Shown piece after piece: positions 7,996 through 8,264 of a stretch of DNA of 64,000 nt (positions within the stretch are counted from its first letter, which is position 1; every line of letters starts with the position of its first letter). The stretch is from an uncultured Acidobacteriota bacterium (GTDB lineage Bacteria > Acidobacteriota > Terriglobia > Terriglobales > Acidobacteriaceae). The notes beneath the pieces were generated by a model. The model ran no database searches and had not been told where the DNA came from. It was given only the letters and a program-made list of their open reading frames with translations. Location of the stretch: assembly GCA_903851035.1 (NCBI GenBank), contig CAINND010000097.1, positions 37,380-101,379 of the forward strand. Direction: 5' to 3'. A program made the position numbers and the translations under genes.

Positions 7996-8025
7996 TTGAC
8001 ACTGTCAGCGTCACTCAGGTACAAA
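7996..8025 (+). promoter_or_regulatory. Putative sigma70-type promoter for the leader-metY-metX transcript
   Basis: TTGACA (7996-8001), 18-bp spacer, TACAAA (8020-8025); predicted TSS falls near the leader ATG at 8032. Confidence 0.45.
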
Positions 8026-8031
8026 CAACGG

Positions 8032-8136
8032 ATGCAACTGAGCGCGATCCTGCTGACGGCCATGGCCATGTGCATGCACATGATGTGCATGCGTACCGCC
8101 GTGGGCGCGCTCCAGACCTCGCGAATGCCAAGGTAA
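8032..8136 (+). CDS. Putative Met/Cys-rich attenuation leader peptide MQLSAILLTAMAMCMHMMCMRTAVGALQTSRMPR
   Basis: Short ORF upstream of metY: codons 11-20 hold 6 Met and 2 Cys; followed by alternative antiterminator/terminator complementarity. Confidence 0.65.
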   Translation: MQLSAILLTAMAMCMHMMCMRTAVGALQTSRMPR

Positions 8137-8169
8137 AACCTTAGGCCAAGCAGAGCAAAGAGATTGCAG

Positions 8170-8206
8170 ACGACCCACGGCAAAGAGCCTGGGTCGTTTT
8201 GTTTTA
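8170..8206 (+). terminator. Attenuator-type intrinsic terminator upstream of metY
   Basis: ACGACCCA(c)GGC-aaaga-GCC-TGGGTCGT hairpin then TTTTGTTTT, located before the metY start at 8265. Confidence 0.8.
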
Positions 8207-8264
8207 TGCAAACGATCTATCCAGCCCAACAAATTTCAACGAGAGCGAAGAGGAGAAGAACATC

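Follow-up and report, generated by a model that had tools for sequence, protein, structure and literature searches.

Control of metY-metX

The region upstream of metY and metX in an uncultured soil bacterium of the Acidobacteriaceae raises the question of how this organism controls its methionine genes. We examined it within the window, by which we mean the whole 64,000-nucleotide stretch of DNA analysed here. The gene metX begins 2 nt downstream of metY, and the closest named MetY records come from uncultured Acidobacteria MAGs, followed by Granulicella, Terracidiphilus and Acidobacteriaceae bacteria. The elements preceding metY, compared with their counterparts in relatives, indicate that metY-metX is very probably subject to ribosome-mediated (leader-peptide) transcription attenuation. 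Elsewhere in the window, a tRNA-Sec gene (35220-35318) suggests that the organism probably makes selenoproteins.

A search of the leader (7930-8300) against Rfam, both at the gathering thresholds and at E values up to 5, returned no match, SAM riboswitches and T-boxes included, and no riboswitch was found at 20 Acidobacteriaceae metY loci. In other phyla, SAM-I lies upstream of many metY loci of the Bacillota and Chloroflexota and SAM-IV upstream of two of the Actinomycetota; these riboswitches serve the same target gene but sense SAM directly. Neither the window's genome nor its genus yielded a SAM-I match. The possibility that SAM-I substitutes for the leader in relatives was considered and rejected: where the gene behind it is readable, that gene seems from its protein sequence to be threonine synthase and not metY, and we therefore make no claim that leader and SAM-I exclude one another at metY in this family. 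An additional protein repressor may conceivably act at metY as well. The Acido-Lenti-1 RNA (RF01687) occurs near two of the metY loci collected (L184, 1258-1303; L149, 982-1027).

Architecture of the metY leader

A short ORF carrying a run of Met and Cys codons precedes metY, and a segment just after that run is complementary to the 5' arm of a predicted intrinsic terminator (Table 1). The terminator core (8170-8197) reads ACGACCCAcGGC-aaaga-GCCtGGGTCGT and is followed by TTTTGTTTT; the fold of 8165-8200 has an energy of -20.7 kcal/mol, and about 60 nt separate the U-tract from the metY start at 8265. In the MFE fold, regions 1 and 2 form a protector hairpin (CCATGGC, 8060-8066, with GCCGTGG, 8098-8104) around an inner stem of 8069-8080 and 8084-8095. 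Region 2 sits within the leader ORF, about 29 nt ahead of its stop codon.

Table 1. Features of the metY leader and the genes behind it (positions in the window).
Feature	Position	Strand	Description
Predicted promoter	7996-8024	+	-35 TTGACA 7996-8001, 17-nt spacer, -10 GTACAA 8019-8024
Leader peptide ORF	8032-8136	+	34 codons, encodes MQLSAILLTAMAMCMHMMCMRTAVGALQTSRMPR; predicted, probably leaderless
Control codons 11-20	8062-8091	+	M A M C M H M M C M (6 Met, 2 Cys)
Region 1	8060-8066	+	CCATGGC; pairs with region 2 to give the protector hairpin (MFE fold)
Region 2	8098-8105	+	GCCGTGGG; antiterminator 5' arm
Region 3	8174-8181	+	CCCACGGC; antiterminator 3' arm and terminator 5' arm
Intrinsic terminator (predicted)	8168-8205	+	stem-loop 8168-8199, U-tract TTTTGTTTT 8197-8205
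metY	8265-9584	+	O-acetylhomoserine (thiol)-lyase / homocysteine synthase, 439 aa; NCBIfam NF006096 (736 bits) and TIGR01326, both over cut-off; PF01053
metX	9587-10744	+	homoserine O-acetyltransferase, 385 aa; NCBIfam NF001209 (344 bits), over cut-off

The leader (8032-8206) folds with z = -4.9 relative to dinucleotide shuffles, and 0.28% of shuffled sequences contain a perfect complement, 8 nt or longer, of the terminator arm (P 0.0028 for the window helix by itself). A generic terminator and promoter scan of the window placed neither the leader promoter nor its terminator above thresholds, because of a bulged C in the terminator stem and a weak -10. The coordinates given in the original prediction for the ORF, the 8-nt complement, the terminator and the distance to metY all proved exact; the TTGACA/GTACAA promoter and region 1 (8060-8066) had been missed. 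Once the 1:2 hairpin is added to the elements first described, the trp-type layout proposed for them is complete in its four-segment form.

The -10 of the window promoter ends 7 nt ahead of the leader ATG. Most leader ORFs of the family are likewise preceded by a TTGACN -35, a spacer of 16-19 nt and a -10 that is often of the nATACT type, and of the 69 leaders whose promoter is good, 40 have exactly 7 nt between the end of the -10 and the ATG. Given this usual spacing, the leader ORF is probably leaderless, with transcription expected to start at or next to the ATG. When the leaderless-promoter pattern was sought across 300 genomes, many of the non-metY matches fell inside coding sequence and appeared chance-like.

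Conservation of the leader

MetY was searched in 61 relatives and 300 genomes of the family, and the upstream regions were gathered; a small ORF was called Met/Cys-rich when at least 4 Met or Cys fell within 10 codons. Such an ORF lies upstream of 77 of the 87 close metY homologues of the Acidobacteriaceae, bearing out the conservation that had been proposed as a check, and 67 of those 77 loci also have a recognised intrinsic terminator, equivalents of the window's terminator being found upstream of metY in relatives. The ten close loci that lack the leader include two truncated by contig ends and some in which metY stands behind another gene. Among named MetY loci (n=80), the ORF is present at every Acidobacteriaceae locus with an intact upstream region; such a leader is also present in Terracidiphilus gabretensis S55 (L142), a relative in culture.

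In other phyla, 4 of about 49 metY loci reach the same threshold. Two of these cases, both from Actinobacteria (L170, L175), were rejected as SAM-IV riboswitches that contain a chance ORF. The leaders before metY in a member of the Gemmatimonadales (L152) and one of the Anaerolineales (L167) each have their own terminator and, in the folding model, a stall-dependent antiterminator, and they look like real leaders outside the Acidobacteriota. The Met/Cys attenuator at metY may thus have had more than one origin, or may have been transferred together with metY.

Within the metY leaders, Met and Cys account for 25% of codons in frame 0, with 14% and 4% for the remaining two, and the Cys codons vary synonymously (141 TGC, 90 TGT). 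All gap runs within the ORF in a 27-sequence alignment are multiples of three, a pattern that stems from just a handful of independent events. The Met/Cys run is conserved while the neighbouring residues vary. A CATG-rich 15-mer core, ATGGCCATGTGCATG, is strongly conserved in many leaders, and several clades without it retain the run, as in MNLCLQNMCMPMRMPICVCG and MSQSATLCCMCMCMCVRF. The C-terminal motif GPVRxALERRMR is common to some clades of leader peptides. In one clade of metY leaders a small hairpin, TGCG-nTAn-CGCA, is conserved around the stop codon of the ORF (A1 columns 116-130), perhaps a pause or release signal.

Alternative pairing and modelled ribosome stalling

Where metY leaders have both the ORF and a terminator, the stretch that follows the Met/Cys run has its complement in the 5' arm of that terminator. 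In a set of 42 dissimilar leaders, the cognate 2:3 duplex averages -19.8 kcal/mol, compared with -16.4 kcal/mol for arms exchanged among leaders (z = -7.2, with 0 of 20,000 permutations as good), a comparison in which some relatedness among leaders persists after swapping. Dinucleotide-shuffled segments average -14.7 kcal/mol (cognate z = -13). The pairing is kept through sequence change, as in GCCGTGGG/CCCACGGC, GTGGGTCGT/ACGACCCAC, GGACCCG/CGGGTCC, GGGACCC/GGGTCCC and GGGTCCG/CGGACCC.

Covariation in the 2:3 helix inside one close clade of 27 aligned leaders did not exceed that of shuffles, which is why arms were swapped between clades. The compensatory change anticipated for the 8-bp pairing is therefore evident between clades but not inside the one clade. 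The claim of mutually exclusive antiterminator and terminator folds is upheld, in that the 2:3 helix takes up the terminator 5' arm and pairing is, on average over the leaders compared, best with the leader's own arm.

The effect of a ribosome was modelled by masking, with the 2:3 probability in the window computed for polymerase at 8186, when region 4 is about to emerge. This probability is 0.05 without a ribosome and 0.01 with one at the stop codon, and it rises to 1.0, 1.0, 0.92 and 0.64 for stalls at M11, M13, M15 and M17, so that the structure switches in the direction originally predicted. The rise on stalling in the window is due to the CCATGGC:GCCGTGG protector hairpin. A ribosome stalled at the last Met, M20, covers region 2, and in the model the effective control codons would therefore be the first Met codons, M11-M17. 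On the complete leader, the terminator prevails in all states tested; if the model is right the switch must accordingly be kinetic, like that of classical attenuators.

Over the 67 leaders, the mean 2:3 probability is 0.75 in the stalled state and 0.39 at the stop codon (P 2e-11). About 30 of the 67 also allow the 2:3 pairing in the stop-codon state, and a strong protector is missing in about half of them under this crude folding model. The 1:2 protector thus appears clear in the window and, as modelled, not universal in relatives.

Taken together, the features seen in the sequence (the ORF with its control codons, the alternative pairings, the terminator and the promoter layout) and their conservation suggest a model for the start site, translation, stalling, termination and inducing signal. 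Briefly, transcription would start at the ATG of the 34-codon leaderless ORF or right beside it. With Met-tRNA (and Cys-tRNA) plentiful, the ribosome would pass through the Met/Cys codons, the 1:2 hairpin (8060-8066 with 8098-8104) would re-form or region 2 would be occupied, and region 3, left free, would enter the intrinsic terminator, ending transcription near 8205. Under Met or Cys shortage, the ribosome would stall at the first Met/Cys codons (8062-8082) and cover region 1; the freed region 2 would pair with region 3 before region 4 is made, the terminator would be blocked, and RNA polymerase would read through into metY-metX.

Codon content and the downstream pathway

Related leaders stand before other genes. 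Sulfite/nitrite-reductase-like genes (NIR_SIR) of the Acidobacteriaceae, and of another family in the same order, are preceded by poly-Cys leaders (L281, L314-L341; e.g. MMSAFYTCCQCCCCCCMCASTGAGRLLT), mostly with terminators; almost all genomes in which such a gene was identified have a leader of this kind. The median Met share is 0.60 in metY leaders and 0.22 in the sulfite-reductase-like leaders (P 1e-9), and the pooled Met:Cys counts are 337:231 in metY leaders against 70:204 in the sulfite-reductase-like, peroxiredoxin and tRNA-Cys leaders taken together (P 1e-20). The metY leaders and nearly all comparison leaders were gathered on the basis of protein homology, with Met and Cys scored jointly, so the contrast was not built in; two members of the comparison set (L281, L301) were first found through their Met/Cys codon pattern. 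The codon make-up of these leaders matches the pathway served by the downstream gene, and little other than the sensing of charged tRNA would readily account for such a match.

Cys-rich leaders (MNAFSPTCMCMCCCCCGCTMRVCV and others; L301, L342-L344) precede a peroxiredoxin gene, which in some genomes is itself followed by a second type of tRNA-Cys. In two genomes (G002:C309, L208/L214, with L214 at about 1354-1576; G032:C17, L215), the Cys/Met leaders MIFSSTMACCCASMCMCMRDGSGMGR and MSFTAQKNANACCACMCYAHDSSGARDCRAGK stand directly before an extra tRNA-Cys(GCA). Both have an intrinsic terminator and a matching antiterminator, and attenuation of a tRNA gene is possible at these two loci. No convincing leader was found at the housekeeping tRNA-Cys genes; only the two extra copies have one.

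Met/Cys leaders with terminators also occur ahead of a RimK-like ATP-grasp gene (L026, L036) and of a gene for a small protein bearing CxxC-type motifs (L045/L212, L284), of which the L045 copy gave no match in Pfam. In one genome (G035), the leader MASFRPTQMAMCMPCTISGIGTRITTTSRTTKGGGGF with its terminator (L042) precedes a gene that reads as an aspartokinase; this leader has Thr/Ile codons alongside its Met/Cys codons, as if it served the aspartate family as a whole.

Other explanations of the leader

The same attenuator could respond chiefly to cysteine or to overall sulfide supply, with the Met codons secondary. MetY-type enzymes can also act as O-acetylserine sulfhydrylases, and TIGR01326 names a dual OAH/OAS sulfhydrylase; moreover, Cys accompanies Met in nearly all metY leaders and dominates in a few (L057, L065), and the sulfite-reductase-like and peroxiredoxin genes of the same family have Cys leaders. 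We nonetheless regard this reading as unlikely, since metY leaders are Met-dominated (median 0.60) where Cys-pathway leaders are Cys-dominated (0.22), and since the window leader has 6 Met to 2 Cys and its first two control codons are both Met. Far less probable still is a nucleotide signal in the CATG-rich core, whether protein site or riboswitch-like RNA, with the peptide incidental. Strong conservation of the 15-mer in many leaders, within a strong hairpin, would fit such a signal, but the clades that lack the 15-mer and keep the run (MNLCLQNMCMPMRMPICVCG, MSQSATLCCMCMCMCVRF), the ORF gaps in multiples of three, the synonymous variation of the Cys codons, the tracking of codon content with the downstream pathway and the silence of Rfam all speak against it.

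Metabolite-dependent arrest peptides are known in general, and the GPVRxALERRMR motif at the C-terminus of some clades would suit a nascent peptide that stalls the ribosome on a small molecule (SAM or Met) and works the same RNA switch. Arrest of this kind would need conserved side chains, however, and the peptide outside the Met/Cys run differs widely among clades while the Met-to-Cys balance follows the pathway, so that we give it an equally slight chance. That the region is a non-regulatory 5' region, with a chance ORF and the terminator of another transcript, agrees with the sub-threshold result of the generic scan but is scarcely credible when dozens of genomes retain the ORF, the pairing, the terminator and their spacing and the shuffle P for the window helix alone is 0.0028. 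Attenuation through Met (and Cys) codons thus remains the favoured account of the metY leader.

Relation to known attenuators

The trp, his, thr and leu attenuators of the Proteobacteria resemble the metY leader in having a run of control codons, mutually exclusive 1:2, 2:3 and 3:4 pairings and an intrinsic terminator before a biosynthetic operon. The metY leader differs from them in its Met/Cys codons, its probably leaderless ORF and its occurrence in Acidobacteriota; region 2 of trpL follows the stop codon, whereas that of the metY leader lies inside the ORF, and no sequence relation between the two groups was detected (Rfam was silent). To judge from its sequence, the metY leader would work like these classical attenuators and is likely to be the centre of a wider Met/Cys attenuator set.

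The nearest precedent is metL of Streptomyces lividans TK24 (MSTTSDRTPATEATTTPGARCMCRRMCAF), a predicted leaderless Met/Cys leader upstream of metNIQ from which a typical intrinsic terminator is missing (PMC8079986). It shares with the metY leader a leaderless ORF, mixed Met/Cys codons and a methionine-related target, but that target is a transporter and the prediction concerns one species; the metY leader has a strong terminator, an explicit antiterminator and a family-wide comparison. A Met-codon leader had originally been described as unusual, and it is not unprecedented, metL having already been predicted. In the searchable papers, this one-species prediction was the only leader-peptide attenuator found for a methionine gene, methionine synthesis being described there as under SAM riboswitches and other controls.

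Mycobacterial polycysteine leaderless short ORFs act on downstream operons by translation control, as far as the accounts in PMC9031893 and PMC13236596 go (Canestrari et al. 2020). On those accounts they too are leaderless small ORFs with runs of sulfur-amino-acid codons, but with Cys only and acting on translation, as opposed to the mainly Met codons and predicted transcription termination of the metY leader. In the Rhodobacterales, uORFC-8-2 (the cysS leader) is a predicted ribosome-mediated attenuator with Cys codons and an intrinsic terminator (PMC8632094); unlike the metY leader, it has cysS as its target and tandem Cys only, and it belongs to the Alphaproteobacteria. Almost no predicted attenuators of the Acidobacteria had been assigned a function (Naville and Gautheret 2010, PMC2965389), and no earlier report of an Acidobacteriaceae metY attenuator was found in the openly accessible literature.

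Implications for the Acidobacteriaceae

The metY leader provides comparative support, from dozens of genomes, for a methionine (with cysteine) attenuator in the Acidobacteriota, and the related leaders, with control codons that follow the pathway of the gene behind, amount to a natural experiment. Its presence in the cultured T. gabretensis S55 makes the system readily testable. Tentatively, and with somewhat less than even confidence, we suggest that a family of leaderless Met/Cys attenuators provides sulfur-amino-acid control in the Acidobacteriaceae, in place of SAM riboswitches at metY, with codons tuned to each target (Met-rich for metY-metX, poly-Cys for the sulfite-reductase-like and peroxiredoxin genes) and with the tRNA-Cys attenuators of G002 and G032 among its members. 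If this holds, the synthesis of a tRNA in those two genomes would be controlled by the charging level of that same tRNA.
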